Source of the DNA: a virus
IMG/VR virus record: IMGVR_UViG_3300046009_014071
Location: 1-31,238 of that record
Reading direction: 5' to 3' (one strand)
Length of the DNA stretch: 31,238 nt
Notes under the pieces: generated by a model
The model's database searches: none
What the model was told of the DNA's origin: nothing
What the model saw: the letters and a program-made list of their open reading frames with translations, nothing else
Position numbers and translations under genes: made by a program
Shown: positions 253 through 31,238 of the stretch, one piece after another
Position numbering within the stretch: the stretch's first letter is position 1
Layout of the letters: each line of letters begins with the position of its first letter

Positions 253-474
253 ATGCCAAACCAAGTAACAGTTTCTACTATAACAGGTACACCACCATAC
301 AGCATATATGTGTGTAATCAGTTATTTACCGCTTGTTTTTATGTCACAACAATTGGTTCAGGTAGTATACCATATACTTTTAATGTACCATTTATTTATT
401 CTAATTTTTCAACTGTGGGTATTAAAATAGTAGATGCGGATGGTTGCATAATAACTCAAACAGTAACGTTCTAA
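253..474 (+). CDS. Small single-domain tail/adhesin-like protein (73 aa)
   Basis: This 73-residue protein is rich in Ser, Thr, Val and aromatic residues. Its pattern is V-x-V-x-x-I, then Pro, CN, Cys and ending DADGCIITQTVTF. The same order occurs in the 100-residue protein at 10868-11170 (CN, Cys, P-x-x-F, K-x-x-D-x-x-GC-x-x-T-x-T), so the two look like diverged copies of one beta-rich domain. The closing D-x-x-GC strand resembles the end of SprB-type repeats. There is no signal peptide or membrane segment. Its stop overlaps the ATG of the next gene as TAATG, implying translational coupling with the 764-residue adhesin-like protein. A tail-tip or fibre accessory role is inferred from this context; the function is unknown. 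Confidence 0.7.
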   Translation: MPNQVTVSTITGTPPYSIYVCNQLFTACFYVTTIGSGSIPYTFNVPFIYSNFSTVGIKIVDADGCIITQTVTF

Positions 475-2768
475 TGCCAGCATGTAATAATTTAGGAAAT
501 TGGTCTTACGGTACAACAGCAAGTGGTGCATGTAATTCAATGTCAACCATAACAATTTATGGTGATAGTTTTAATGTTGGAGAAACATTATATTCGGGTT
601 CTCTATGTAATCCAATTGATGAAATTTCAAATGGTTATTATTCAAATGGTATTGTTGCATTTAGATATTTAGGTGGGTTTAGATTTTTTGTTTCTTGTTA
701 TTGTGAAGACGATTACTGTGTTTTCGATACCATTTTATTTGATGATACTTATGAAGTAGCCGGAACATACGATAATAATGTTTATTTCTCAGGTCTTTCA
801 ACATCATATGTAATTTATTACTCAACAGTACAAACTCAATGGTGTTTATCATCAAGTTTAGGTGGAGTATGTGATCTATGGGGACCTATGGGTTCAACTT
901 CACAGTGTCCTGACTTAGATGCGAGTCTATTCTATTCCGGTGTTTGTCAAACAATAATAACAAGTACGGATCCTTGTGCTGTGTTTGATTTTAACGCAGT
1001 TTTTGATTGTTTTAGTATTCCACCTCCACCACCTCCTTCGGCATCACCAACACCAACACCTACACCTACACCAACACCTACACCAACAAATCCTTGTGGT
1101 GGTTTTGTTGCGTCAATAACAGGACTTGGTGTCACACCAACACCAAGTGTTACCGCATCACCAACACCCAGTGCAACACCTGATGTAACAAGACCTTGTA
1201 ATTTCAGTGGGACAGCAATTTTTAATGGTATTTCAGAAAGAATAATTTGTGGAGATAGTAAAAAATTCAAAGATTGTTTCACAGGGTTTGATTACTACAC
1301 GACTCAACCATTATTAGATCCAATAGGTAATCCTTTAAGTGAGGGTTATGTTTATCAAGTTGTGGTAAATGGTGTTCAGTTATGTGCAATATATGAAGGT
1401 TTAAATCAGAATATAAGTGGAGTTGATAATATACAAATTGTCGGTGTAATTGGTGATTCTGCACAAGGTGCTTGTTTACAATGTATACCATCAACACCTG
1501 AACCAATTTATGATTGTTTAGTTGTTCATTCTGAATGTGCAGGTGGTAGTGGAGCCATTAATGTAAACCCCGGAACGGTAATAAATGGTAGATTTTCATA
1601 TTCATTTAACTTTCCACTAAATATAAATTTCTCATCATATACATATACAATATATTGGGATGATATAAACGTAAGGTGGGTAGTTGCCGATTCAACTAAT
1701 AATCTTGCAGGTATGTATTTAAATCTTGACATACCAATGCCTATTGGTTCTACCTCAGAATGGGTTTCTGTTCCACCACCACTTTCACCATCCTTAGCTT
1801 GTATTACAATGAGTGCTGGATTCTATACGACTAACACCGGAATACCTTGTCCTACACCAACAATAACACCAACTCCAACAGTAACACCGGGACTACCTCC
1901 ACCACCTCCTTCGGCATCACCAACACCCACACCAACTCCAACACCTTCTCCAAGTGCTGGTTGTTGTATACCATCTACTAATTTGAAGTTACCTGGAGGT
2001 AATGTATTTTTGAACGGGGTGACCTTAAGTTTTTCATCGACACAACCCGCTGGACTATCAATTTTTACACTTCCTAATATAATGTCACCTGCGTGTCTTC
2101 CACAACAACAACTAATTAATTGTTTGTTTACAGCACCTAATAGTTTTCAAGATTGGAACTATACAATAAATTTCAGTCAACCTGTAAATAATGTAAAAAT
2201 ACAAATTATAAATTATAGTTCAAGTTCCGCATCCGACACTCAAGAAAAAATTACTTTTACCACAAATACAAATGTTCCTACAATATTTAATTGTGATGGG
2301 TGTAATGTCTTAGTACAAAATAATTCTATAATATCTAATCCAGTACCACCCGGTGGTCTTAGTAACGGTAGTGGTGCGTTCATTATTTCCACAACCACAC
2401 CTTTCAACTCTCTCACACTAACACCTAGTATGTTAGGAACCAACCCTCAAGGTTATAAAGTGTCTGTATTTATCAGAATTTGTAATTTGACACCAACAGA
2501 ATTTGAGTGGACTAGTGGTAACGAATGGTATTCAGATGAAGTTATTGCATGTTCTAACTATATTTCATTTGGTGGTGGTTCATGGACTACAGATACTTCA
2601 GTCCCAACAGTTTCACATGATTTAATTGATGATAGTACAGGTTTACCTGTTACAGGTCAGGGGGGTACTTGGATATCGATATCGAGTATAAGTAATCCTG
2701 GTATTGTAATTTACGCAGTTCAAGTGGATTCAAATGGTGAAATTATTGATGTCGTAGTCTGTCCATAA
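474..2768 (+). CDS. Modular fibre/adhesin-like protein with Pro/Thr-rich linkers (764 aa)
   Basis: The start is taken as the ATG at 474, which overlaps the preceding stop (TAATG); an upstream in-frame start at 444 would read back into the previous gene. The protein is a chain of Cys-containing, beta-rich domains joined by low-complexity linkers. The linkers are at about residues 183-206 (PPPPPP, then SPTPTPTPTP), 220-240 and 459-494. One domain at about residues 346-447 has the core YTIYWDDINVRWVV, and a weaker copy lies at about 93-158 (YVIYYSTVQTQWCL). Similar cores occur in the 682- and 1114-residue proteins of the minus-strand cluster. No catalytic motif is recognisable. A receptor-binding or decoration role on the virion is inferred from architecture. 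The gene and its small upstream partner are the only plus-strand genes in the window, facing the resolvase across a duplicated terminator. Confidence 0.75.
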   Translation: MPACNNLGNWSYGTTASGACNSMSTITIYGDSFNVGETLYSGSLCNPIDEISNGYYSNGIVAFRYLGGFRFFVSCYCEDDYCVFDTILFDDTYEVAGTYDNNVYFSGLSTSYVIYYSTVQTQWCLSSSLGGVCDLWGPMGSTSQCPDLDASLFYSGVCQTIITSTDPCAVFDFNAVFDCFSIPPPPPPSASPTPTPTPTPTPTPTNPCGGFVASITGLGVTPTPSVTASPTPSATPDVTRPCNFSGTAIFNGISERIICGDSKKFKDCFTGFDYYTTQPLLDPIGNPLSEGYVYQVVVNGVQLCAIYEGLNQNISGVDNIQIVGVIGDSAQGACLQCIPSTPEPIYDCLVVHSECAGGSGAINVNPGTVINGRFSYSFNFPLNINFSSYTYTIYWDDINVRWVVADSTNNLAGMYLNLDIPMPIGSTSEWVSVPPPLSPSLACITMSAGFYTTNTGIPCPTPTITPTPTVTPGLPPPPPSASPTPTPTPTPSPSAGCCIPSTNLKLPGGNVFLNGVTLSFSSTQPAGLSIFTLPNIMSPACLPQQQLINCLFTAPNSFQDWNYTINFSQPVNNVKIQIINYSSSSASDTQEKITFTTNTNVPTIFNCDGCNVLVQNNSIISNPVPPGGLSNGSGAFIISTTTPFNSLTLTPSMLGTNPQGYKVSVFIRICNLTPTEFEWTSGNEWYSDEVIACSNYISFGGGSWTTDTSVPTVSHDLIDDSTGLPVTGQGGTWISISSISNPGIVIYAVQVDSNGEIIDVVVCP
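1022..1054 (+). repeat. 33-bp direct repeat, copy 1
   Basis: This copy is identical over 33 bases to 1895-1927 and encodes PPPPPSASPTP. The two copies lie 873 bases apart, an exact multiple of three, inside the same reading frame of the 764-residue protein. Each copy opens a Pro/Thr-rich linker. Confidence 0.85.
1043..1089 (+). repeat. Imperfect hexamer repeat encoding a Thr-Pro linker
   Basis: A run of alternating ACCAAC and ACCTAC-type hexamers encodes the Pro-Thr stretch of the first linker of the 764-residue protein. Unit-by-unit gain or loss here would change linker length without changing frame. Confidence 0.75.
1895..1927 (+). repeat. 33-bp direct repeat, copy 2
   Basis: This is the second exact copy of the 1022-1054 element. 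It opens the last Pro/Thr-rich linker (about residues 474-494) of the 764-residue protein. Confidence 0.85.
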
Positions 2769-6894: not shown

Positions 6895-8943
6895 TTAAAT
6901 TCCTACCACCTCAACCGCACAACAAACACAATTATTTATTTGAACATTTGTCAATTGTATTTGATAACTACCAGCAGCATTAGAACAGTTTGCTGTAGGT
7001 GTATTTATTATTTGATTAGTAACAGTGCCATTTATACTTTGTCCACTTGTTAATGTTATGGTTGAGAAATATGCGGTGTTAATTTGATTTTGAATTAATG
7101 GTGAGTAAACTTGAGCACAAGGTCCTCCTATATTAGAAAAACTTGTTATCGTGTTATACAAAGATAATGGTCCAATACCCGTAATTGTTGCTATATTATT
7201 ATATGATGGTATTGGTGTCACTGTATTTGGGTAGTAATTAAATACATTTGTGTGGACCACATCAAAGGTTATTGAAGCCCCTGGCGGTAAAGTAGGTGCG
7301 GTAACTGAGAATGTATTATTTGAGTAACTCGCACCAAAAGCCAATTGATATACTGTTTGTGGAGTACCCGCAACATTAACTAACGTTAAACTACTAACTC
7401 CATTAGTATCAGAAACTTGTACACTATAATTTCCCGGTGACAATCCTGGAAAATATGGACTTGTCGAAAAAGTTGTCCCATTGTCTATTGAATATAAATA
7501 AGGTGGTGTTCCTCCGTATGCCGTAATTATTATACTGCCATTTTGATTACATTGAGCAACATTGGTAGCAACCGTAAATCCAACTGATGTGGTTGCGGAA
7601 CAAGATCCGCTAAAAATTGAGAATGTATCAATTGTTGCGTCACCATACACCTGCCAGTTAGAAAGTGGTGGTGCTGAAGGATTATTACTTGCGACCAAAC
7701 TTGTCGGTGATCCTGCATATCCTGTCATTACCCATTGATTTGGTGTTGATCCCGTACTCCAATATAAATCATACGCAGTATCTGATGATTGCCAACTTGG
7801 TTGTCCATTTACAGTACCATTATAACTCATTGTTACAAAAATTTGTTGGTTAGGAAGATCAGGATCATTACTTCTTAATAAGTAAAACGCACATAATGTA
7901 GGATAAGTAATTGGAGTAACTGGTGGATTACAAGGACCAATATAAGAGTCCAAAATAGTATATCCAGTGCTTGTTCCTGCAGACCAAGAGTATGCGCCAT
8001 AAGTAGCAGGATATAGTTCATCATCATTATCTAAACTATTGTAGAATCCGTTTGTTCCACAAGTAAAATCTTGACAAAATACCCAAACACCTAACAATTC
8101 ATCCCAAAACACAACCCCATATGATATTATACCATTTGATACAACATAATAAGGTTTTGTGTTTTTTATACCAGCAAAATTAATGGTTAAATATTGATCA
8201 GGGTTTGAATCAATTACAAAACACATACCTGAGTATGTTGGTGTTTCCGCAGTTAAAATACAAGTTGTATTAATAACAAAATCACCATAGTAGTCATTAA
8301 TAGTCGCCGAATATTCTCCAGGTCCTAAATTAGTTAAAGCCGGTGCATAACTACCTATATCCCAATAAATTGTATATGGTGGTGTTCCTCCTGTGACATA
8401 TAATTGGACTGACCCATCAAAACTTCTATCATCTGTTGGGTTTATCGTGATACATTCCGCATCCATTGGGAATATTGTTAAAACATCACATTCGTTTCTA
8501 TTTCTAACTGTTGGGAACGTTGATGGACAATTACCATCAATACAATCACCCTTTGAAACCACTTTAGTCCCTCCTGATATTTCAAAAACAGGATATATTT
8601 TTGAACAGAAATTTGAGGTTTGTCCTGTTTGGAAATTTTCTAAAACTAATTCATTATTGTTGTTTACGTATGTTGTTGTAACGACTTTATCATCATATGT
8701 GATAAAATAACAATAGTTTTGACAATCACAAGTAATATCAGGATCTAAAACTGTCGTATAAACAACAGGACAATCTATAGGTCCTAAATCAAAAACATAA
8801 TAACACTGTGGGTCAACTTCTATTGGGTCAATTACTCGTATTGACGCAAAATTACCAGCGTAACCACTAAGACTTTGGTCATTTGAGATTATTGGTGGTA
8901 AATCACTTTTACCACAAGAATATAGAATATAACAATTTTCCAT
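6895..8943 (-). CDS. Adhesin-like structural protein with SprB-type repeats (682 aa)
   Basis: At least two segments match the SprB repeat pattern of Bacteroidota gliding adhesins: GSVQLYVTGGTPPYTIYWD at about residues 178-215, and GSIIITAYGGTPPYLYSID followed by LSPGNYSVQVSDTNG at about 468-525. Two further segments (about 239-295 and 350-446) carry the VVFW...VWVF and YDLYWSTG...QWVM cores shared with the 764- and 1114-residue proteins. The N-terminal 170 residues are Cys-rich (CDCQNYCYF, CIDGNC) and ordinary membrane or signal sequences are absent. It starts with MENCYILYSCG at the ATG at 8943. A surface-exposed fibre or baseplate-decorating adhesin is inferred. Its neighbours are the collar-type fibre downstream and a glycosyltransferase-like gene upstream. 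Confidence 0.72.
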   Translation of the reverse strand: MENCYILYSCGKSDLPPIISNDQSLSGYAGNFASIRVIDPIEVDPQCYYVFDLGPIDCPVVYTTVLDPDITCDCQNYCYFITYDDKVVTTTYVNNNNELVLENFQTGQTSNFCSKIYPVFEISGGTKVVSKGDCIDGNCPSTFPTVRNRNECDVLTIFPMDAECITINPTDDRSFDGSVQLYVTGGTPPYTIYWDIGSYAPALTNLGPGEYSATINDYYGDFVINTTCILTAETPTYSGMCFVIDSNPDQYLTINFAGIKNTKPYYVVSNGIISYGVVFWDELLGVWVFCQDFTCGTNGFYNSLDNDDELYPATYGAYSWSAGTSTGYTILDSYIGPCNPPVTPITYPTLCAFYLLRSNDPDLPNQQIFVTMSYNGTVNGQPSWQSSDTAYDLYWSTGSTPNQWVMTGYAGSPTSLVASNNPSAPPLSNWQVYGDATIDTFSIFSGSCSATTSVGFTVATNVAQCNQNGSIIITAYGGTPPYLYSIDNGTTFSTSPYFPGLSPGNYSVQVSDTNGVSSLTLVNVAGTPQTVYQLAFGASYSNNTFSVTAPTLPPGASITFDVVHTNVFNYYPNTVTPIPSYNNIATITGIGPLSLYNTITSFSNIGGPCAQVYSPLIQNQINTAYFSTITLTSGQSINGTVTNQIINTPTANCSNAAGSYQIQLTNVQINNCVCCAVEVVGI

Positions 8944-8959: not shown

Positions 8960-9940
8960 TCATTGATTTGTTTTTTGGATATATGATCTCATATTCTCAA
9001 TATATTTTATTGTTGCACTTTTTGGGTCTATGTAGTTAAAATAATTTTCATCGTTTTTTAATAACTCTATGGGATTTCTATCTATGAATTCACCCTTATA
9101 AAATTTATTATGTTTCATAATTTCTGTTACTCCTGCCATATGTAAGATTGGTTTTTTATAAAAATTATCAATAGTATCTGTCGCCCAAGAAAAATCTAAT
9201 TCATCAATAATTTTTGTTTCTTTTTTTGTTTTCCATAAATTCCATAAAAGTGACCACATCTCTGCGGTCCAAAATTGTACTTTATTATTCCTTATTGGAA
9301 ATTTTTTTTGGAAGATCATCATGGTTGAGTACATAATGAATGAGTCTTCGTAAACTTTCTTCCAAAACTCTTTGTCAGTATTTTTTATAATGTACTGTCC
9401 TCCGCCGGAATTATTTTGATTATTAATTATCATTTCTTTATCTATTGGAATAACTTTACACATTTCATTTATTAATTGTTCTTTTTCACAATTTTTAAAT
9501 TCTCTTTCATAATTTAATGACGCCGATTTTAAATAATTGTATCCGATATAATTTTTAGTATCGGACAAATAGATAATTTCATCTTGTATGAATTTTTCTA
9601 AATTTGGTAATTCATTCCAAATTATATCGGAATCATGTAAAAAAAACATTTTACCATATTCGGGTTTTTTTTCTAACCATTTATAGATCAGATATGGTTT
9701 TATACTTGGGATATAATTTTTTCTTTCTCTTTCATCTTTAAAATGTGAAATATTAACCCCTAATTTAATTAAATCTAAAGATTCATCAGATGGTTTATTT
9801 TTTTCTTGATCATAAGAAAAAATAATATGTATTTGTTTTGGATTTATTCCTTTTTGAATAAAATTATGAACATACAATTTTATTTGCCAAATGAAATAAG
9901 GGACATCAGGTTGTGCCGAAACAAATAATATATTTTCCAT
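8960..9940 (-). CDS. Glycosyltransferase-like protein, GT-A type (326 aa)
   Basis: The N-terminus ILFVSAQPDVPYFIWQIKLYVHNF resembles the first strand and helix of GT-A sugar transferases. FLHDSDIIW at residues 100-108 supplies a DxD motif (Asp103, Asp105), which in these enzymes binds the metal and nucleotide-sugar. GGGQYIIK (179-186), FWTAEMWSLLW (223-233) and LHMAG with His267 follow in the order seen in DxD transferases, where a late His often completes the metal site. The protein is Lys- and Ile-rich, unlike the Ser/Thr/Gly-rich fibre proteins on both sides. Its placement inside the fibre cluster suggests that it glycosylates a fibre or a host surface glycan; donor and acceptor are unknown. 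It begins at the ATG at 9940, after a 44-base gap. Confidence 0.68.
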   Translation of the reverse strand: MENILFVSAQPDVPYFIWQIKLYVHNFIQKGINPKQIHIIFSYDQEKNKPSDESLDLIKLGVNISHFKDERERKNYIPSIKPYLIYKWLEKKPEYGKMFFLHDSDIIWNELPNLEKFIQDEIIYLSDTKNYIGYNYLKSASLNYEREFKNCEKEQLINEMCKVIPIDKEMIINNQNNSGGGQYIIKNTDKEFWKKVYEDSFIMYSTMMIFQKKFPIRNNKVQFWTAEMWSLLWNLWKTKKETKIIDELDFSWATDTIDNFYKKPILHMAGVTEIMKHNKFYKGEFIDRNPIELLKNDENYFNYIDPKSATIKYIENMRSYIQKTNQ

Positions 9941-10867: not shown

Positions 10868-11170
10868 TTAGAATTCGAATTGATATGGTTCTGAATCCAT
10901 AAAAACAAAATATTCAAAATTTTGAAATTGTTTGTATGAAGAAACAACATTCGGTGTACAATATAATGTGTGGGTAACCTCACACCCTGTCGAATCTTTA
11001 AGTGTCAAATTGAAAGCTGGTGCGGTGTCAAATTGTGATGGTAAAGTAAATAAAAATGGTAAGTCTGTTGCTTCACCCAAATAACCACAATCATTACCAT
11101 AAACGTTACAAGCGGTTCCACTAAATGGTAATGTAAAATTAGATATATTTGTTACTAATACTTTAGTCAT
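10868..11170 (-). CDS. Small single-domain tail/adhesin-like protein (100 aa)
   Basis: The start is the ATG at 11170 (MTKVLVTNISNF), two bases after the TGA of the 727-residue gene; a TTG two codons earlier overlaps that stop and is less likely. The first 70 residues share the pattern of the 73-residue plus-strand protein: paired CN and Cys, P-x-x-F, then LKDSTGCEVTHTLYC. The last 30 residues (VVSSYKQFQNFEYFVFMDSEPYQFEF) are aromatic-rich and absent from the shorter copy. There is no signal peptide or membrane segment. Location between the SprB-repeat protein and the collagen-like fibre suggests a structural or tip role. The function is not known. Confidence 0.68.
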   Translation of the reverse strand: MTKVLVTNISNFTLPFSGTACNVYGNDCGYLGEATDLPFLFTLPSQFDTAPAFNLTLKDSTGCEVTHTLYCTPNVVSSYKQFQNFEYFVFMDSEPYQFEF

Positions 11171-11172
11171 TA

Positions 11173-13356
11173 TCAATTACATTGTACACAAGATATATCA
11201 TAAAGAATTTTTAAATTAACAATTACAAGTTCATCTTGTAATAAATTTAAAATTTCTTTCTCACAATTTTTTGGGTAATTAGTACAACCTGCAATAATTT
11301 TAATTCTATTTTGTACCAAATCTATAGATACATCATCAATACCAACATAAGATTTAAGAGTGTCAATTATTGTTTCAGCCCATAGTATATCGTTAGGATA
11401 ATCATTAAAACTTGTTGAGGTATAAAAATTAACTTCTTTAGTTTCATCACCAATACTTGTTTGTAATATAAAATCGGCAGAATTTATAATACAATTTGTA
11501 TCTCCACTTGTTAAATCAAAAAACCCTTCCCAATACATCTGTCTTATACCTCGTTTAGTTATCGTATTAGTTGGTTGAAACTGTTGTTCACAAATTGTGT
11601 AGATCTCATAGTTTTGTACTTTTTTTGTACCATATAAACTTATACTTTTTGTTAAAGTACATCCACTCTTATCCGTTAGTTGTAATGTATAATCACCACT
11701 TGTCAACCCTGTGAGTGATGCTCCCGTCTGTCCAGATACATTTCCACTCCAACTATACGTAAAAGGAGGTATACCACTCGTAATTAAAACTGATATTGAT
11801 CCATCATACCCAAATAAAGGTTGTATTGGATACAAATCAAAATAAACACCGCTTGATGGTGCAATGTATACAGGTATTTCTTGATAACAAGCAGGACTAC
11901 TACTATCTGTAACTCTTAAAGTAAATGTGCCCGATTGTAATCCCGTATAATACCCTAAATTATTACTTAAAACATCTAATGACGAATTAGGTCCTATTAA
12001 ATCGTAGGAATATGGTAGTGTTCCTCCAGTTGAGACGAATATCTCACAAATACCATTATCTAAACCACAAGTTGTTCCCGTGGTATTTGCCGTTATTGAA
12101 AATAAATCAACGTTACTTACTGTTGTGTATCCCGAAAAAGTACACCCATTAACATCTGTTACTGTTACCAAATAATCCCCCGTTTCAATACCATTCCAAA
12201 TTTGATTAGCAGGTCCCGATACGACACTATTATAGTATCCATTATCACCTGATAATACGAATGTATATGTGCTTAATGGTGGTAATCCGTTATCTATTAG
12301 TACTTGAACTGATCCATTTGTTGATGAGCATGTTGAATTAGTAACGTTAATACCGACAGTTGAAAAACTGTTAGGTGTTTGTACATTTACAAGTCCTGTG
12401 GTGATACATAATCCTGCATCTGTGACTTGTACTGAAAATGGTCCACTACTTACACCAGTGAAAGTGTATGAGGTACCAAAAGAAATTGCGACCTCACCTG
12501 TTGATCCACTATAATAAAAAGGGGCAGTACCTCCAGTAACAATTACCTCAACCTCACCGTCGTCTTGAAAACAGGTTGGTGGTGATGTGACAAAAATTGT
12601 ACCCACAGATAACGTTGGTACATTTCCAACATTTATAAATTCAGTTGATGTACAACCTAAAGGGTTTGTTATTTCTACTATGTAAGTATTTTCAGTTAAT
12701 CCTGTTATTGTTGTACCTGTCTGACCATTAACATCGGTTAACCAATTTATTGTATATGCACTTGACGGTGTAAGTCCTGTTATGAATATTTTACCAGCAC
12801 CCTCGTCAAAACAACTTGAATCGGGAACTACATAATACCCAAAAGTAAAAGGTACTGAAGGTGTGATAAGAGCTGTTGCGGACATGCCGTCACATCCTCC
12901 CCCATCATTTGCAATAACATAATATGTATCAGCACTTAATCCTTGGAATGTATATGATGTGGTAACGGTTGATGCGGTTTGCATTAAATTACCAAAAATA
13001 TCATATAGTTCATATGTCGCTAAACCATAGACATTAGTTGTCGAAGCCTCGATTTGTCCATTATTAAAACCACAAGTTGTTCCTGTGGTCGATAAAGTTA
13101 TTGATGTGCCTGACGAAATATAAAATGGTATCAATCGGGAATCACCTCCAGAATCTTGTACCTCAAGTACATAATAATCGGCCGGTAAGTTATTCACTTC
13201 ATAAATTGATGTTACCGCAGATGTAGGTAAATTACCTGTTGTTGTTACTTCAGAAAAAGTCCAAGATGGGCTAGATCCTGTAACCTCAATAAAGATTGAT
13301 CCGTTACTTCCTCCCCCACAATCACCTGTTATACTAATTTGACTTATCTGTATCAT
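11173..13356 (-). CDS. SprB-type repeat tail protein (727 aa)
   Basis: About seven tandem repeats of 70-85 residues fill residues 1-580. Each follows the pattern C-x-x-x-x-G-x-I/V, a Gly/Pro turn (TGGTAPFYYSG, TGGTLPYSYDL, TSGIPPFTYSW), then GL/SGxYTLxVTDxxGC. This is the SprB repeat, found in the cell-surface gliding adhesin SprB of flavobacteria and in other Bacteroidota surface proteins. Residues 580-727 are a separate globular domain with several Cys (YEIYTICEQQF, QMYWEGFFDLTSGDTNC, ending SCVQCN) that may anchor the repeats to the tail. No signal peptide is present, as expected for a virion protein. The ATG overlaps the stop of the 996-residue gene (TAATG), so the two are probably made together. 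A long flexible receptor-contacting fibre is inferred. Confidence 0.78.
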   Translation of the reverse strand: MIQISQISITGDCGGGSNGSIFIEVTGSSPSWTFSEVTTTGNLPTSAVTSIYEVNNLPADYYVLEVQDSGGDSRLIPFYISSGTSITLSTTGTTCGFNNGQIEASTTNVYGLATYELYDIFGNLMQTASTVTTSYTFQGLSADTYYVIANDGGGCDGMSATALITPSVPFTFGYYVVPDSSCFDEGAGKIFITGLTPSSAYTINWLTDVNGQTGTTITGLTENTYIVEITNPLGCTSTEFINVGNVPTLSVGTIFVTSPPTCFQDDGEVEVIVTGGTAPFYYSGSTGEVAISFGTSYTFTGVSSGPFSVQVTDAGLCITTGLVNVQTPNSFSTVGINVTNSTCSSTNGSVQVLIDNGLPPLSTYTFVLSGDNGYYNSVVSGPANQIWNGIETGDYLVTVTDVNGCTFSGYTTVSNVDLFSITANTTGTTCGLDNGICEIFVSTGGTLPYSYDLIGPNSSLDVLSNNLGYYTGLQSGTFTLRVTDSSSPACYQEIPVYIAPSSGVYFDLYPIQPLFGYDGSISVLITSGIPPFTYSWSGNVSGQTGASLTGLTSGDYTLQLTDKSGCTLTKSISLYGTKKVQNYEIYTICEQQFQPTNTITKRGIRQMYWEGFFDLTSGDTNCIINSADFILQTSIGDETKEVNFYTSTSFNDYPNDILWAETIIDTLKSYVGIDDVSIDLVQNRIKIIAGCTNYPKNCEKEILNLLQDELVIVNLKILYDISCVQCN

Positions 13357-16346
13357 TATCCATTACATAGTACTTGGAAACTAATTCCAACATTTATTGA
13401 TATATCATCATTGCTTGGTACACAATTATTATTATAAATAAGAACTGTCTCATCTTGTGTATTCATAACATAACTATATCCCAATGTTTGTAAACTTAAT
13501 AAAGTAGTATCTAAAGCGTCTACCCAATCACCCGTGGTTGGTACCCCTGCGGGTCCTGAACCACTGAAAAAGTAATCTTGTGCTATTGGAACTCCGTTAA
13601 CTCTAATATCCACATACCAATTAGTTAATATTGTTAAACCTAAACAATCATTAAAGTTTATATTTTCAGAAAGATAATATTGTTGTAACAAGTTTGACAA
13701 TAAAACACCAAAAGATGTTACAGTAGGATCTGAATTCCACGGATATAACCCACATTCAATATATTGACCCGGACAATCATAAACAAATGCTTGAGTTGTA
13801 ATTCCACAAGGTTTACAAAGTGGTGGTAATATTTTACAAACAGTTTGTCTTCTCCATCCGAATTTTTGTCTATGGAAAATTGAATTTTCTAACTTCATTC
13901 CTGTTGTCCAAATGGTTGTCGCAGGAATCATCTGTTCAATTAATCTTATCCAATAGGTACCCAAACCATTAACATAATCGATCATTGTTTGATATGTAAA
14001 ATTGCCGTTTTCAACTCCGATAAGTTGTTGGGATTCTAAATACTTCCAATAAATTGATTGTAAAGTAGGGTATCCACCAGTCTTACCATCAGTAATGAAT
14101 TGTCTATTTCTAACATTAATCATATTATGCCAAAAAGTTTGAGCAAACTCAAAGAAAGTTTTTTGTTTTGGTTTTGGTACAATTTCAGTCCAATCAATAC
14201 CTCCTCTTTTTGGGTAAGGGTTTGGTATATCACATGGAGATGGTGGTACATAATTTAAACCTTGTTCAGGTATTGGGAAATTATATTCTCTTGACATAGA
14301 CCAAACATCATATATTAACCCTTGTGCCGGATTCATAAATATGTCGACGTTTTTGACGTTCAACACTAAACATTCTTCATTAGCAACGTAGTAGGCGTTT
14401 AAATTAGCATCAAAACTATTTCGTAATATTTGTTGTGAGTCAATCCAACTTTTCTTGTTATCGGATATTTTTCTTAAAGTATATCCCAAATTCATATATG
14501 GGAAATATCTATATCTATTTAGATATTCTTCCCCATAATTAAATGGTAACAATTTTGTTTGATAATCGGGATTATTACCTGTGAAAACGCTATTTGTTAA
14601 ATTAACCTGCTCAGGCATTCTGTGTTGAGGTGTTGATTCAAACCAACCCCCTCCTATTTGGAAAAAAAAGTCATCTGATGTTGCTGGCATTTGTGGACAT
14701 CCAATTAAATCAACAGGGTAGTCTTCTCTTGTCGTTGTGACAGGAACTGTAATACTTGAGGTAGTAAAACCTGTTGCGGGGTTTCCTAATATACTGTATA
14801 CATTATTTGTTTGTAATACAGGAAATTGTTGTGTGAATGATCCACCTGTAATTTGTAAGAATTGTTGTTGGAAATTCGACATATCAATTCTTTGATCGGC
14901 AACATAAACGTATTCATTAAATTCCACTAAAGCATCTGGTGCCCCAATCAATCTTAATAAACACTCAATAGATTTTCTCGTACCTTTCGATTTAAATAAG
15001 TAAGCAGAATTTAAAACTAAATTTCTATAATATTGATAGTTTAATTCTTCAGGTGTTTGACCTTTAGATAAACCAGGAAATAAATTTGTTGTTGGTGAAA
15101 AAACATTCTGTAATAATTGTTCATTAGATATTGGGGAAATGTTTACCTTCCACCCTAATGTTTCAGCAAGGTTTTTTAATAACTGTGATGGTATGTCATT
15201 TTTTACAACATAATTAACATTGGTCATATTGGCCAATGCGGTTATGAAAGTTTTTGTTTGGTCAAAACTTCTACCATAAATTTGTAATACTTTTTCGAAC
15301 TTTTGATCTGGAGTATCAAATTCTTTAAGAGCTCCCGTAGTTAAAAATCTTGAGATCAAGTTTGTTTTGTACTCATCTAAGTTAGTACTAAATTCACTTA
15401 ATTTTTGAAGATAAATCTCAAAGTTCTGTGACTCAATATCTAAATTCCATAGACCTGATAATGGGAAAGTTACGTTTTGTGTTGTAAAAACATAATTACC
15501 GTTATCCATTTCTTTTGGTGTTCTAAAACTTGCGGTATAAATAGGAACTACATTTCTATTTAGTAAGAAATTTTCAACAGGATCGAGGTTTTGTTGGAAT
15601 ACCGAGTTAACTTCACTATTATTTGGTCTGATCACTAAATAATCATATGATATCTGAGATCCTGAAAATGGATTACCCTCAACAATTATGGTAAATGTAG
15701 TTGAGTTATCATTTGTAGGATAGATGTAATTTACTGGATACTCATTTCCTTGTACGTATAGACTATATTTTTTAAAATTTGCAGTCATATCTCTCAAAGG
15801 AGATACCTCAACTTCTTTTAATAGGATGTTACGAGCTGCGTTTTCAGAAAAATCAATATCAAAAGGATTTCTAATTGACGATATGTAAATTTCAAGTGAA
15901 GTTTCATTATCAACCGCATCATACGCACAATTAAAAGCTGTGGTTTGTGTTATAAACTTTGCAGTATTTTGAGCGACTTCTAAAGCACCAGGGAAAAAGT
16001 TGATAATTCTTGTTACTGAAGTTGAGATTCTTTTAGTTAAAGACCCATACTCCGTAAAGTTCGTAATTTGACTTAAATCATAATTTGGATATACTTGAAA
16101 GTTCTTAGAAAGAATTGCTTGTGATTCTATTAAATTTTCAATATTTAAACTATCTAAATTGATTGGGTCAGAAAACGACCCTATATCAAAATTTCTGTTT
16201 TGTTTTTCACTTATTGATGTTGTGAACTCAAAATTTGCCTGCGTAAAACCCCCACCCGCAATTAATTGTAATCCTACAATATTATCGGAAAAAGTTCCTT
16301 GACCGCTAGCTGGTGTTGGTGGACAGGTAAATTTTTGTGTAGCCAT
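13356..16346 (-). CDS. Baseplate/tail protein with gpI-like segment (996 aa)
   Basis: Residues about 385-475 include LAETLGWKVNISPIS, then LNYQYYRNLVLNSAYLFKSK and GTRKSIECLLRLIGAP. The string of a folded helical region with 'KGT-x-x-x-I-x-x-LL' resembles the P2 gpI-type tail protein, which links baseplate and fibres in contractile phages. The long regions on both sides (1-380 and 480-996) are unrecognised and rich in aromatic and Asn residues. The C-terminal 150 residues contain a Cys-rich stretch (ILPPLCKPCGITTQ, YDCPGQYIECG). The start overlaps the stop of the 302-residue gene (TAATG) and the stop overlaps the start of the SprB-repeat gene, so it sits in a tightly coupled run. A baseplate-to-fibre adaptor is the favoured role; this is an inference from one segment and from position. 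Confidence 0.58.
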   Translation of the reverse strand: MATQKFTCPPTPASGQGTFSDNIVGLQLIAGGGFTQANFEFTTSISEKQNRNFDIGSFSDPINLDSLNIENLIESQAILSKNFQVYPNYDLSQITNFTEYGSLTKRISTSVTRIINFFPGALEVAQNTAKFITQTTAFNCAYDAVDNETSLEIYISSIRNPFDIDFSENAARNILLKEVEVSPLRDMTANFKKYSLYVQGNEYPVNYIYPTNDNSTTFTIIVEGNPFSGSQISYDYLVIRPNNSEVNSVFQQNLDPVENFLLNRNVVPIYTASFRTPKEMDNGNYVFTTQNVTFPLSGLWNLDIESQNFEIYLQKLSEFSTNLDEYKTNLISRFLTTGALKEFDTPDQKFEKVLQIYGRSFDQTKTFITALANMTNVNYVVKNDIPSQLLKNLAETLGWKVNISPISNEQLLQNVFSPTTNLFPGLSKGQTPEELNYQYYRNLVLNSAYLFKSKGTRKSIECLLRLIGAPDALVEFNEYVYVADQRIDMSNFQQQFLQITGGSFTQQFPVLQTNNVYSILGNPATGFTTSSITVPVTTTREDYPVDLIGCPQMPATSDDFFFQIGGGWFESTPQHRMPEQVNLTNSVFTGNNPDYQTKLLPFNYGEEYLNRYRYFPYMNLGYTLRKISDNKKSWIDSQQILRNSFDANLNAYYVANEECLVLNVKNVDIFMNPAQGLIYDVWSMSREYNFPIPEQGLNYVPPSPCDIPNPYPKRGGIDWTEIVPKPKQKTFFEFAQTFWHNMINVRNRQFITDGKTGGYPTLQSIYWKYLESQQLIGVENGNFTYQTMIDYVNGLGTYWIRLIEQMIPATTIWTTGMKLENSIFHRQKFGWRRQTVCKILPPLCKPCGITTQAFVYDCPGQYIECGLYPWNSDPTVTSFGVLLSNLLQQYYLSENINFNDCLGLTILTNWYVDIRVNGVPIAQDYFFSGSGPAGVPTTGDWVDALDTTLLSLQTLGYSYVMNTQDETVLIYNNNCVPSNDDISINVGISFQVLCNG

Positions 16347-27039: not shown

Positions 27040-28881
27040 CTATGAGAAACTTACTGTGTTAAGATTGAGAACTCTTACATTAATATCCCTATTTTGATAT
27101 CTAATTTGGTAAATTTGTGAAGGTTCTGCGTAAATAGTATCGGCATATAATTGTATTTGTCTTGTAACACTATTTGAGTAAGCTTGAGATGTTTCAAATG
27201 ATGAATATTGACCACCAACTAAGTTATAAAACTTCATATCCGATATACTAATTACACCGTTTTGTGATTGTATCAATCTTCTTAACTCAGATACAACAAC
27301 ATTTTGACCTAATTGTCTTGTCAAAGGATTAAAATAATTTGAGATTATTTCAATTATTTTTGCAACAACCGCACCTTGTGTTTGTGAATTATCTAAAACA
27401 ACATCACAATCTACCGCCAAATCAATAGGTTCCGCACTTTCGATTGAAATGTAGTCATTTATCATTCGATAGTTTGAGAGGTAATTTGCCACATTTTGTT
27501 TTAATGTGTTGGATATTACATCCGTCAAATTTCCACTTGTATCATAAGATAACATCTTAATTTTAACCTTATTATTTTCTTCAACAACACCAACTTTTGC
27601 AGGTGCCCCAAAAATCGAAGGCATATTTCTTATTACTGATTCGTAGTCGTTAACTGTGACCGCTCTATTCTGAGCTGCAAAATTAAATGATACCATCTGT
27701 CTAACATCTTCCGTTGTTGGTGCGTTTGCCCCACCAATAGCGGCTGTAACATTATTACATCTTAAACTATTAATTACGGCTCTGTTTACAGTGTCTGATG
27801 GACCATTAACAGAAAACGAAACCGTACCAATTTGATTAATCGCATTTACACCAATGTTAGATCCTACACCACCACCAATTCTATATTGTATAAACAAAGT
27901 ACTATTTGATTTCAAAGCAGCACCTAACCCTAAATTATTTGAGTATCTTGCAATGTCAAAACCTTTACCATCTCTCGCAAATTCTCTTAATTGTTCTTCT
28001 GCCGATACATTACCACCACCAAAAGTCATTTTAAGAAATCCTTCAGGTGTGTATTCAGTTATGAATTTTTCAGATGTAGATATGTACTTACCTACTTTAA
28101 TACCAGGTTGATCAGATGGTTTTGTCGGGTCTTCAACAAAAACTCTGTCTTCAACCAACGCTTTAACTTCAAACCATCTATCAGGACCTAATGTTATAAA
28201 ATCTTGAGGTTCAGGTATTGTTGAGTATTGTGTACCATCTTTTAATAAAACACTTGTAATCCCTAAAACATTCTTTTCAGGTAAGAATAATTGAAAATAT
28301 GGTACAACGTCATTTGGTGTTATTACTCTTTTGAAGACTTTTGTAACACCGTTAACCACTACTTCTCTTTTTGTTATCGTGTAATTTAAAAGATTTCCGT
28401 TTGCATCAAAATTAGGGATTTTTAATCTGTTTGGTGTTCCTTCGGCGTTTATTGGGGACGCAAAATCAATATCATAAACAGTTTCAAATGGTTGTCCACC
28501 ACCATTAACCAAAGATCCTCTTCTTAATATACCACAATATCTTAAGTCTTCTCTATCCCCAAAAGCAGGTACTGTAATTGAGAAATCAACTAAAGCAACT
28601 GACGGTCTTTGACCAGGTATTTTTAATCCATAAGTTCTAGCAATATTATAAATTGATCCTTTTTGTTGTGCAAATTGTAAGACAGTTTCCTGTATACTTC
28701 TATCAATTTGAAATTGTAAGTTATCCGTTACGGCAGCATTCAAATCTAACATAACCGAGAATATCCCAGCATCATTAAAGTTCTGTACTAAGTCAGGATA
28801 ATAAGTTCTTGTGAAATTAATTAATTCGGTTCTTATTCCTTGAAAGTCCCTTGTTGTGTACGATATTTTTTTCTCTGCCAT
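27040..28881 (-). CDS. Baseplate wedge protein, gp6 / baseplate J-like (613 aa)
   Basis: The N-terminus (ISYTTRDFQGIRTELINFTR, FNDAGIFSVMLDLNAAVTDN) is typical of T4 gp6 and related baseplate J/gp47 proteins, and the length is close to T4 gp6 (660 residues). Further support comes from the middle and C-terminal region: TTEDVRQMVSFNFAAQNRAV, then VNDYESVIRNMPSIFGAPAK (about 380-420), and late SELRRLIQSQNGVISISD. In T4, gp6 joins wedges into the inner iris of the baseplate and controls its change of shape. It lies directly downstream of the gp25-like gene, the conserved wedge order of contractile phages. The start is the ATG at 28881, six bases from the gp25 stop, with an A-rich leader. Confidence 0.86.
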   Translation of the reverse strand: MAEKKISYTTRDFQGIRTELINFTRTYYPDLVQNFNDAGIFSVMLDLNAAVTDNLQFQIDRSIQETVLQFAQQKGSIYNIARTYGLKIPGQRPSVALVDFSITVPAFGDREDLRYCGILRRGSLVNGGGQPFETVYDIDFASPINAEGTPNRLKIPNFDANGNLLNYTITKREVVVNGVTKVFKRVITPNDVVPYFQLFLPEKNVLGITSVLLKDGTQYSTIPEPQDFITLGPDRWFEVKALVEDRVFVEDPTKPSDQPGIKVGKYISTSEKFITEYTPEGFLKMTFGGGNVSAEEQLREFARDGKGFDIARYSNNLGLGAALKSNSTLFIQYRIGGGVGSNIGVNAINQIGTVSFSVNGPSDTVNRAVINSLRCNNVTAAIGGANAPTTEDVRQMVSFNFAAQNRAVTVNDYESVIRNMPSIFGAPAKVGVVEENNKVKIKMLSYDTSGNLTDVISNTLKQNVANYLSNYRMINDYISIESAEPIDLAVDCDVVLDNSQTQGAVVAKIIEIISNYFNPLTRQLGQNVVVSELRRLIQSQNGVISISDMKFYNLVGGQYSSFETSQAYSNSVTRQIQLYADTIYAEPSQIYQIRYQNRDINVRVLNLNTVSFS

Positions 28882-28886
28882 TTTTT

Positions 28887-28894
28887 ATTAAATA
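28887..28894 (-). promoter_or_regulatory. TATTTAAT, near-match to the gene-start motif
   Basis: A related A/T octamer 5 bases before the ATG of the gp6-like gene, overlapping the stop codon of the gp25-like gene. The overlap with coding sequence makes it weak evidence. Confidence 0.2.
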
Positions 28895-29346
28895 TTTATT
28901 ATGACAAAATCACTTGCTTCAAACGCCTGATTTGTTATTCTATAGTTTATTGTGATTTTAGCGGTATGTTCTAAATCTGAAATACCAGGAACTCTAAATT
29001 CCCTCTCATCATATTCATTAATCGTGTAACCTTTATCTTCCTTACCCATAGAAGCATCTTCTATTTTTACTTCAGTAACTATTAAGTTAGGTAAAAAATC
29101 ACCAATAGATTGTCTTATGTCAGCTTCAATGTCTGAAAATGTTGGTCCGTCTAATGGTTCAAAAATATACTCGTATAATCTTGTACCAAAAGTTGGTAAA
29201 TAATATCTTGACCCTTTTCTTGTTAATAATAAATGTATTAAACAATTTCTTATTTCCTCTTGGTTTGTATTAGACACATCTAAGTATCTACCAACAAACG
29301 AGTCTCTAAAAGGAAAACTTATACCATACGAAATACCTGTTGCCAT
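28888..29346 (-). CDS. Baseplate wedge protein, gp25-like (152 aa)
   Basis: The sequence FRDSFVGRYLDVSNTNQEEI, then LLLTRKGSRYYLPTFGTRLY and IFEPLDGPTFSDIEADIRQS, fits the gp25 / GPW_gp25 family (T4 gp25, P2 gpW, TssE), small baseplate wedge proteins that nucleate sheath assembly. The length of 152 compares with 132 in T4. The EPR motif conserved in many members is here EPL (residues 63-65), which may be a variant. It is the first gene after the ribonucleotide reductase terminator, so a promoter for the tail unit probably lies just upstream. It is followed immediately by the gp6-like gene. Confidence 0.88.
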   Translation of the reverse strand: MATGISYGISFPFRDSFVGRYLDVSNTNQEEIRNCLIHLLLTRKGSRYYLPTFGTRLYEYIFEPLDGPTFSDIEADIRQSIGDFLPNLIVTEVKIEDASMGKEDKGYTINEYDEREFRVPGISDLEHTAKITINYRITNQAFEASDFVIINI

Positions 29347-29417: not shown

Positions 29418-31238
29418 TTAAGATGAACATCCAAAACATTCAAAGTCAGAGTTCTCAGGTCTTGGTGGTAAATTCAAGTTAGAATAATCAACCTTTGGTG
29501 GTTCAGGAGTAGCCTTTGGTCTTTCTTTTTTTGAAATGTCCATTGCCAAGTGTTTTGCTCCTGTTGAGATTGCTTTGGTTCTAACATAATAACAAAGTGT
29601 TTTCAACCCACTATCCCAAGAGTGGAAGTGTGATGAGGTAATCTTTGATAATGTTGGGTTAGACATATAGATATTCATTGACTGTGATTGATCAATAAAT
29701 GGTGCTCTATCTGCCGCCATATCAATAAGTTGTTTTTGTGAAATCTCCCAAATTGTTTTGTATTTAGGAATTAAATGTTCAATTCGTTTCACTTTCTTAT
29801 TGTAATTTTTATCTTCAGGATCCAAATAATTATTGAAGTTAATATTTTGGATCGATCCTTCATTAAATATGATTTCATTTTTCAAATCCTCACACCAAAT
29901 ACCAATCTTCTCAAAGTCATTGATTAGGTATTTGTTAACGATCATAATTTCACCACCAACAACTCGTCTGTTAAAGATTGCCGAGTGTGCCGGTTCTGTC
30001 ATTTCATATGAACCTGTGATTTTGGCCGAAGACGCCACAGGCATTTGAGCGGTAAACAATGAATTACAAACACCGTGAGATTTAACATTTTCTTTTAATT
30101 TATCCCAATCCCACATTCCTGAAAGTTGTGTTTCATCAATATCCCACATATCAAATTGGAAAATTCCTTGTGACATAGGTGACCCATTAAAGAAGTCGTA
30201 AGCCGTGTATTTACCGTCAATACACAACTGATTACTTTCATAAATAGCTGCGTAATAGATGGTTTCAAAAATATCTTTATTTAATTTTCTCGCCTCTTCA
30301 GATGTGAAGATATAATCCATTAAATAAAATACATCCGCTAATCCTTGTGTTCCGATTGCAATTGCTCTTTGTTCTAATCCACCTTTTCTACCTTTTTCTG
30401 TTGAGTAGTTATTAATTTCCACAACTTTATTAAGTGATCTCACAACTTTTCTAACCTCAGTGAATAAAAGTTCAAAATCAAACTTACCTGACTTAATAAA
30501 GTTTTTTAATACCATAGACGATAACGTACAAATTGCGGTTGTATCCTCATCTGTATATTGATAAATCTCGTTACAAAGATTTGATTGTTTAATCACACCT
30601 ATGTTTTGATGATTAGTTTTCTTATTTGCATTGTCTTTAGAACATAAATAAGGAACACCGGTTTCAACTTGGGATTCGATGACTTTAGTCCAAATATCTT
30701 GAGCCTTAACTTTCTTACCAAGTCCCATAGATACCGCATTACTATAAACTTCTTCATATTCATCACCATAACATTCTTGTAATGGTTTTAAACCAGCTTT
30801 CTTAATATCATTAGGACAAAACAAATACCAATCACTATTTTCTCTTACCGCCCTCATGAAGTTATCAGGAATCCAAAGCGCTGTAAATAAATCACGAGCT
30901 CTCAACTCTTCAGCACCTGTGTTCTTTTTAATATCTAAAAGATCAAAAATATCTTTATGCCAAGGCTCAAGATAGATAGCTGCGGAACCTGGTCTACGAC
31001 CTTGTTGATTAAAGAATCTGAGTGATTCATTAACAATCTTAAGGTATTTTAACAAACCACCAGCGTATCCACCTGAACTAGAAATTCTACTTTCTTTACT
31101 ACGAATGTTAGACATAGAAAGTCCAATACCCGCTGCGTCTGATGAGAATGTAGAAATATCTGTTAAAGTATCTAACAAACCTTTTCTTGAGTCAGCATCA
31201 TTATAATGAAGTACACAAGACGCCAATTGAGGAACTTT
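29418..31238 (-). CDS. nrdA: Ribonucleoside-diphosphate reductase, class I large subunit, C-terminal 606 residues (cut by window edge)
   Basis: The reading frame is open to the right edge, and the first visible codons (KVPQLASCVLHYND) are inside the catalytic domain, so the TTG at 31226 is not the start. Class I hallmarks are all present: the first redox Cys in QLASC (codon 31215-31217), NLCNEI with the thiyl-radical Cys (codon 30573-30575) and flanking Asn and Glu, the partner Cys in TAICTLSSM, the radical-relay Tyr pair in LCYYVRTK (codons 29586-29591), and a C-terminal CFGC tail that is re-reduced by thioredoxin or glutaredoxin. The enzyme turns ribonucleotides into deoxyribonucleotides, raising dNTP supply for phage DNA synthesis. 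The radical-generating small subunit is not in the window and is expected upstream or in the host. A terminator follows directly. Confidence 0.93.
   Translation of the reverse strand, partial: KVPQLASCVLHYNDADSRKGLLDTLTDISTFSSDAAGIGLSMSNIRSKESRISSSGGYAGGLLKYLKIVNESLRFFNQQGRRPGSAAIYLEPWHKDIFDLLDIKKNTGAEELRARDLFTALWIPDNFMRAVRENSDWYLFCPNDIKKAGLKPLQECYGDEYEEVYSNAVSMGLGKKVKAQDIWTKVIESQVETGVPYLCSKDNANKKTNHQNIGVIKQSNLCNEIYQYTDEDTTAICTLSSMVLKNFIKSGKFDFELLFTEVRKVVRSLNKVVEINNYSTEKGRKGGLEQRAIAIGTQGLADVFYLMDYIFTSEEARKLNKDIFETIYYAAIYESNQLCIDGKYTAYDFFNGSPMSQGIFQFDMWDIDETQLSGMWDWDKLKENVKSHGVCNSLFTAQMPVASSAKITGSYEMTEPAHSAIFNRRVVGGEIMIVNKYLINDFEKIGIWCEDLKNEIIFNEGSIQNINFNNYLDPEDKNYNKKVKRIEHLIPKYKTIWEISQKQLIDMAADRAPFIDQSQSMNIYMSNPTLSKITSSHFHSWDSGLKTLCYYVRTKAISTGAKHLAMDISKKERPKATPEPPKVDYSNLNLPPRPENSDFECFGCSS

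Follow-up and report, generated by a model that had tools for sequence, protein, structure and literature searches.

Tandem arrays of a Bacteroidota surface domain adjoining tail genes were previously described for crAss-like phages, whose tail-associated proteins harbor BACON domains (PF13004); in the portions of that study dealing with these arrays, each array position formed its own clade and the order of the domains was stable (PMC6949934). A different surface module, the SprB repeat (PF13573), belongs to SprB of Flavobacterium, a very long cell-surface adhesin that is a type B substrate of the type IX secretion system (T9SS) and is carried on the gliding track by SprF (PMC12635249). Gliding mutants of Cellulophaga and Flavobacterium were found to resist some phages, and SprB and RemA were proposed as their receptors (PMC13288928; PMC7345892). 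The literature retrieved with "SprB repeat" and "phage" comprised unrelated work only, and SprB was absent from the huge-phage paper (PMC7162821). The closest viral protein was A0A6J5LD72 (BFVD), a 714-aa "SprB repeat" protein of an uncultured Caudovirales, which is known as a database name and on which no study was found in the literature. It was the best viral match to the model of the protein characterized here, P0001, shared 28% identity with it over the full length (E=1.1e-49), and very probably belongs to the same protein family, as judged from this alignment.

P0001 is encoded in the window, i.e., the whole stretch of DNA analysed, a 31-kb virus record (31,238 nucleotides), and its features and neighbouring genes are listed in Table 1.

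Table 1. Coordinates of P0001, its domains and the neighbouring genes in the window.
Feature	Position	Strand	Remarks
P0001, 727 aa, seven SprB-type Ig-like repeats and C-terminal alpha/beta domain	11173..13356	-	ATG 13356, stop 11173-11175
P0001 repeat R1, aa 1-82	13111..13356	-	first Cys only
P0001 repeat R2, aa 83-166	12859..13110	-	C95 and C155 in 18/18 homologues
P0001 repeat R3, aa 167-245	12622..12858	-	C182 and C235 in 18/18 homologues
P0001 repeat R4, aa 246-327	12376..12621	-	strongest single-repeat Pfam SprB match, 2.7e-8
P0001 repeat R5, aa 328-415	12112..12375	-	
P0001 repeat R6, aa 416-501	11854..12111	-	
P0001 repeat R7, aa 502-575	11632..11853	-	second Cys only
P0001 C-terminal domain, aa 604-727, beta-beta-alpha-beta-beta-beta	11176..11547	-	homologous to P0005 C-terminus
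P0005, 996 aa, conserved tail-module protein	13356..16346	-	directly upstream of P0001; C-terminal domain like that of P0001 at ~13359-13763
P0002, 682 aa	6895..8943	-	two further SprB repeats at ~8284-8424 and ~7372-7575
100-aa protein	10868..11170	-	directly downstream of P0001, ATG 11170
Collagen-like tail-fibre protein, 288 aa	9985..10851	-	start likely ATG 10851, not GTG 10983
P0011, baseplate J / gp6-like baseplate wedge	27040..28881	-	
P0012, gp25-like baseplate wedge	28888..29346	-	

The original prediction of about seven SprB-like tandem repeats in P0001 was borne out with exactly seven, which occupy residues 1-575 and measure 74-88 aa each. The Pfam SprB family was matched above its curated cut-off (E=2e-15, 56.5 bits against 28), rather than generic Ig or PKD families only, and PF13573 was also recognized in 17 of 18 P0001 homologues, while two composition shuffles of P0001 gave no Pfam SprB match. 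When the repeats were scored singly, R4 alone exceeded the cut-off; R7 (27.5 bits, 2.4e-6) and R1 (2.3e-4) were significant yet below it, and R2, R3, R5 and R6 were weak or silent. A profile HMM built from 122 repeats of bacterial SprB-repeat proteins detected all seven units in order (190 bits, E=1e-59), with a top score of 3.8 bits on 50 shuffles of P0001, although its independence is not full, since the bacterial repeats were excised by means of an HMM of phage repeats, and most of the loci that they came from had been detected by PF13573. The P0001 units fit the full ~75-85-aa motif C..NG.I..GGT.PY..W..GL.AG.Y.VTD.GC, a consensus common to the bacterial repeats, and the motif Cys pair fell in the same alignment columns in both sets (110 and 108 of 126 phage repeats; 104 and 109 of 122 bacterial ones). 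A generic Ig domain miscalled as SprB was rejected in view of the fit of the bacterial-only HMM to all seven repeats and of the common Cys pair. The additional copies foreseen in the 682-residue protein were located at residues 174-220 and 457-524 of P0002 (Pfam SprB, 2.6e-9), and the "unique" C-terminal domain of P0001 proved to be real, spanning residues 604-727.

Outside Bacteroidota, PF13573 was also detected above the cut-off in the Wac fibritin of coliphage RB43 (6.9e-11), which scored 77 bits with the bacterial-repeat HMM. The matches lie in three C-terminal Ig-like domains of the wac gene (locus L139, 1-2253), which differ from the P0001 repeats in lacking Cys and in also matching Ig_3/I-set; moreover, this protein belongs to the neck and not to the baseplate, is annotated as aiding long-tail-fibre attachment, and comes from a phage with enterobacterial hosts. 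The RB43 case shows that the boundary between SprB repeats and phage Ig-like domains is soft.

The history of the array was approached by comparing repeats within and between proteins. Repeats within the phage proteins shared 24% identity on average, whereas most bacterial arrays reached 31-70%, and in 1996 of 2142 comparisons the best partner of a repeat in another phage was the one at the corresponding position. In a FastTree phylogeny of 261 phage and bacterial repeats, R1, R2, R4, R5 and R7 formed exact clades, R3 included one foreign tip and R6 gathered 15 of its 17 tips, the support of these groups ranging from 0.78 to 0.99; phage and bacterial repeats were not cleanly apart in this tree, with which one or several original transfers in either direction would be compatible. 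Since the repeats pair and group by position, the array was assembled before these phages diverged and was retained thereafter, and a recent capture of repeats from a host was rejected on the basis of the position-specific tree. The P0001 array thus resembles the crAssphage BACON arrays in its stable order and in having each position as its own clade (near-exact for R3 and R6), as well as in being a Bacteroidota surface domain next to tail genes, but a different family is involved, and neither a common C-terminal domain nor a swappable tail module is described for the BACON proteins in the corresponding portions of that work (PMC6949934).

Relatives were collected by scans with P0001, P0005 and a profile of P0006, which gave 2, 34 and 80 loci, respectively (116 viral loci, some of them on one contig), and the marker gene was confirmed in at least 554 IMG/VR stretches. 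The gene order P0010-P0009-P0008-P0007-P0006-P0005-P0001 was conserved, and the P0001 homologue came immediately after that of P0005 wherever the locus extended far enough; the one exception was the distant L036, where a 1760-aa ORF bore one SprB-like stretch below the cut-off. Repeats and C-terminal domain were found together in 86 copies, 84 of which cover the whole seven-repeat profile; the remaining two represent a single split gene, counted twice from one contig, and the repeat number is fixed at seven in all 84 unsplit copies. A scan of genome contigs returned a single MAG. When named phages were searched by tblastn with P0001, P0005 and P0006, one weak match (LR756502) or none was obtained, and hence no cultured relative was found. 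An ORF similar in size to the 100-aa protein also follows the P0001 homologue in L001, L010 and L012. The motif FQDxDxFxFQD, possibly an assembly tag, ends several SprB proteins (L001 7995-10523, L010, L029 and L102) and, in L001, also the 100-aa protein that follows.

The gene neighbourhood of P0001 includes P0012 and P0011 upstream, and the collagen-like fibre and P0002/P0003 downstream. The tail-sheath family PF04984 was matched in all ten larger relatives (E<=3e-6; seven above the family cut-off), and phrog_26672, a "virion structural protein", matched 10 of 18 P0001 homologues. By annotation, a tail setting of P0001 is supported by the gp25 and baseplate-J genes together with the sheath in larger relatives. 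The designation "phage tail protein" rests on gene order. Other genes of the window were also noted: P0004 (326 aa, 8960-9940, minus strand) matches phrog_4417 of unknown function, is kept amid fibre genes in many relatives and looks glycosyltransferase-like by eye; a ribonucleotide reductase large subunit gene (29418-31238, minus strand) adjoins the baseplate genes; and P0014 (774 aa, 444-2768, plus strand) contains PT-rich linkers, is encoded in the opposite orientation to the tail genes and is conserved in part in relatives.

The C-terminal domain of P0001 was aligned with the end of P0005 by hhalign (E=2.6e-5, 75%) and by hmmsearch (down to 5e-7), and the predicted strand order was equal in both models; by these profile and model comparisons, the two domains are distant homologues. 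In 37 of the 86 copies, the protein extends beyond this domain by 95-692 aa, often via PT-rich linkers, and the added modules differ between relatives, including DUF285/BspA-type repeats (2.6e-134), Fib_succ_major (7.6e-26), LRR and a weak CBM_4_9; the copy in the window's phage has no tip extension. AlphaFold predicted seven beta-sandwiches followed by the alpha/beta domain (mean pLDDT 78.6), with a low pTM of 0.33 that leaves the relative placement of the domains undefined in the model, whereas the centre of the P0005 model failed (pLDDT 46.5). The top solved-structure match of the sandwich chain was the grappling hook protein GhpA of Aureispira (PDB 9flp and 9flw; E=3.2e-20), with TM-scores of 0.14-0.22 that indicate a likeness as a chain of domains only; GhpA gave no profile sequence match to P0001 and is a bacterial surface hook, whereas P0001 is encoded in a phage tail module. 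A sequence search of the PDB with P0001 alone retrieved nothing, and the P0001 profile retrieved only two phage Ig-like domains, one belonging to a neck whisker and the other to a decoration protein.

Rare Shine-Dalgarno motifs are usual in Bacteroidota. The window has a GC content of 0.327 and a Shine-Dalgarno-like motif at 1 of 14 gene starts, and both traits, along with a signal domain for type IX secretion encoded by one relative, were counted toward a Bacteroidota host, which is probably that of the window's phage. On contig IMGVR_UViG_3300031857_024884, which comes from a relative of the window's phage and also carries L102, three small proteins with signal-like starts are encoded in a row (L144, 3122-4921), one of them ending in a CHU_C domain; CHU_C was sought in 34 other family contigs and found in none. 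A 642-kb phage record, LR756502.1, encodes beside phage topoisomerase II genes a 1670-aa protein (514378-519390; L037 18474-23486) with 14 SprB repeats, a signal-like start, a CHU_C type IX secretion domain (5.1e-14) and PKD; it has the look of a surface protein that the phage encodes and the host T9SS would export; two more CHU_C matches occur elsewhere in this record.

Taken together, we consider it likely that P0001 is a structural tail-module protein of a large contractile-tailed Bacteroidota phage, consisting of an SprB spacer and a C-terminal dock, with swappable tips in relatives. This fibre-stalk or adaptor reading is favoured mainly because a constant stalk is combined with a variable end, as in tail fibres and adaptors. 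Glycan binding is a role often ascribed to the Ig-like arrays of phages, and the repeats could instead act as a receptor- or glycan-binding surface gripping exopolysaccharide or capsule, much as SprB sticks to surfaces, before other fibres engage, which we regard as rather improbable: the repeats keep the bacterial consensus and the neighbouring tips are adhesin-type modules, but the variable part is the C-terminal tail and not the repeats, whose positions are kept across the family, with mean identities to P0001 of 37-55%, and whose fixed number fits structure rather than host-driven variation. No binding motif was found in the P0001 repeats, and they may bind polysaccharide directly. The BACON arrays of crAss-like tails are likewise read as possible host-binding parts where that study discusses them (PMC6949934). 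It is very unlikely that P0001 is a host-surface or moron product outside the virion, for which the LR756502 protein would be the precedent, since P0001 lacks CHU_C, is embedded among the clustered tail genes in all relatives and has a domain in common with P0005.

The original prediction had also raised the idea that the virion mimics SprB or uses the gliding tracks. That it imitates SprB, binds its ligands or partners and rides the gliding machinery is hardly credible, even though the P0001 repeats are genuine SprB-family units with the two-Cys motif of Flavobacterium SprB, and despite the phage resistance of gliding mutants and the proposed SprB/RemA receptors (PMC13288928; PMC7345892). SprB joins the track via SprF as a T9SS type B substrate (PMC12635249), whereas P0001, with 727 aa and diverged repeats, showed no CHU_C/PF13585 sorting domain in Pfam (E<=10) or NCBIfam (E<=1), the same library detecting CHU_C in LR756502, and no hydrophobic leader was seen by eye in its start MIQISQISITGDC. 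In addition, PF13573 was found in many proteins of one Bacteroidota MAG and passed the cut-off in 15 of 80 Bacteroidota genomes, often in many proteins, some with dozens of copies. Because it occurs both in RB43 Wac and in many bacterial proteins, PF13573 is a general extracellular Ig-like module and no mark of gliding; the enterobacterial hosts of RB43 are not known to glide with SprB. The phage repeats are also unlike recently acquired host copies, because each is specific to its position and their divergence predates the diversification of these phages. Some flavobacterial phages do depend on gliding genes, but the presence of the repeat is not in itself an argument for mimicry. The related proposal, in which the SprB-type array lets the virion engage host SprB filaments or ligands, so that, prior to infection, gliding cells carry the bound phage through a biofilm or along the surface, appears highly doubtful.

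In the favoured stalk or adaptor arrangement, the seven SprB-family domains would form a string of fixed length, a spacer or adaptor setting reach, in which weak glycan contacts are possible, and the C-terminal domain common to P0005 would dock P0001 in the baseplate or fibre assembly. We infer that P0001 belongs to the virion, as we do its orientation and docking role. The modules placed behind the C-terminal domain suggest that this end is distal, whereas the sharing of the domain with P0005 suggests, on the contrary, that it docks. In many relatives, the swappable module behind this domain is probably receptor-binding, and in this phage the tips are probably on separate fibre proteins encoded downstream.

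These findings show that, in a widespread group of contractile-tailed phages, the repeat of the SprB gliding adhesin makes up a tail-module part with a constant number of seven domains, so that BACON is joined by a second Bacteroidota surface domain turned into tail architecture. An SprB label in a phage should not be taken as a sign of gliding, given that the family also occurs in a coliphage fibritin, and the swappable tips offer clues to which receptors are used by uncultured phages of Bacteroidota.
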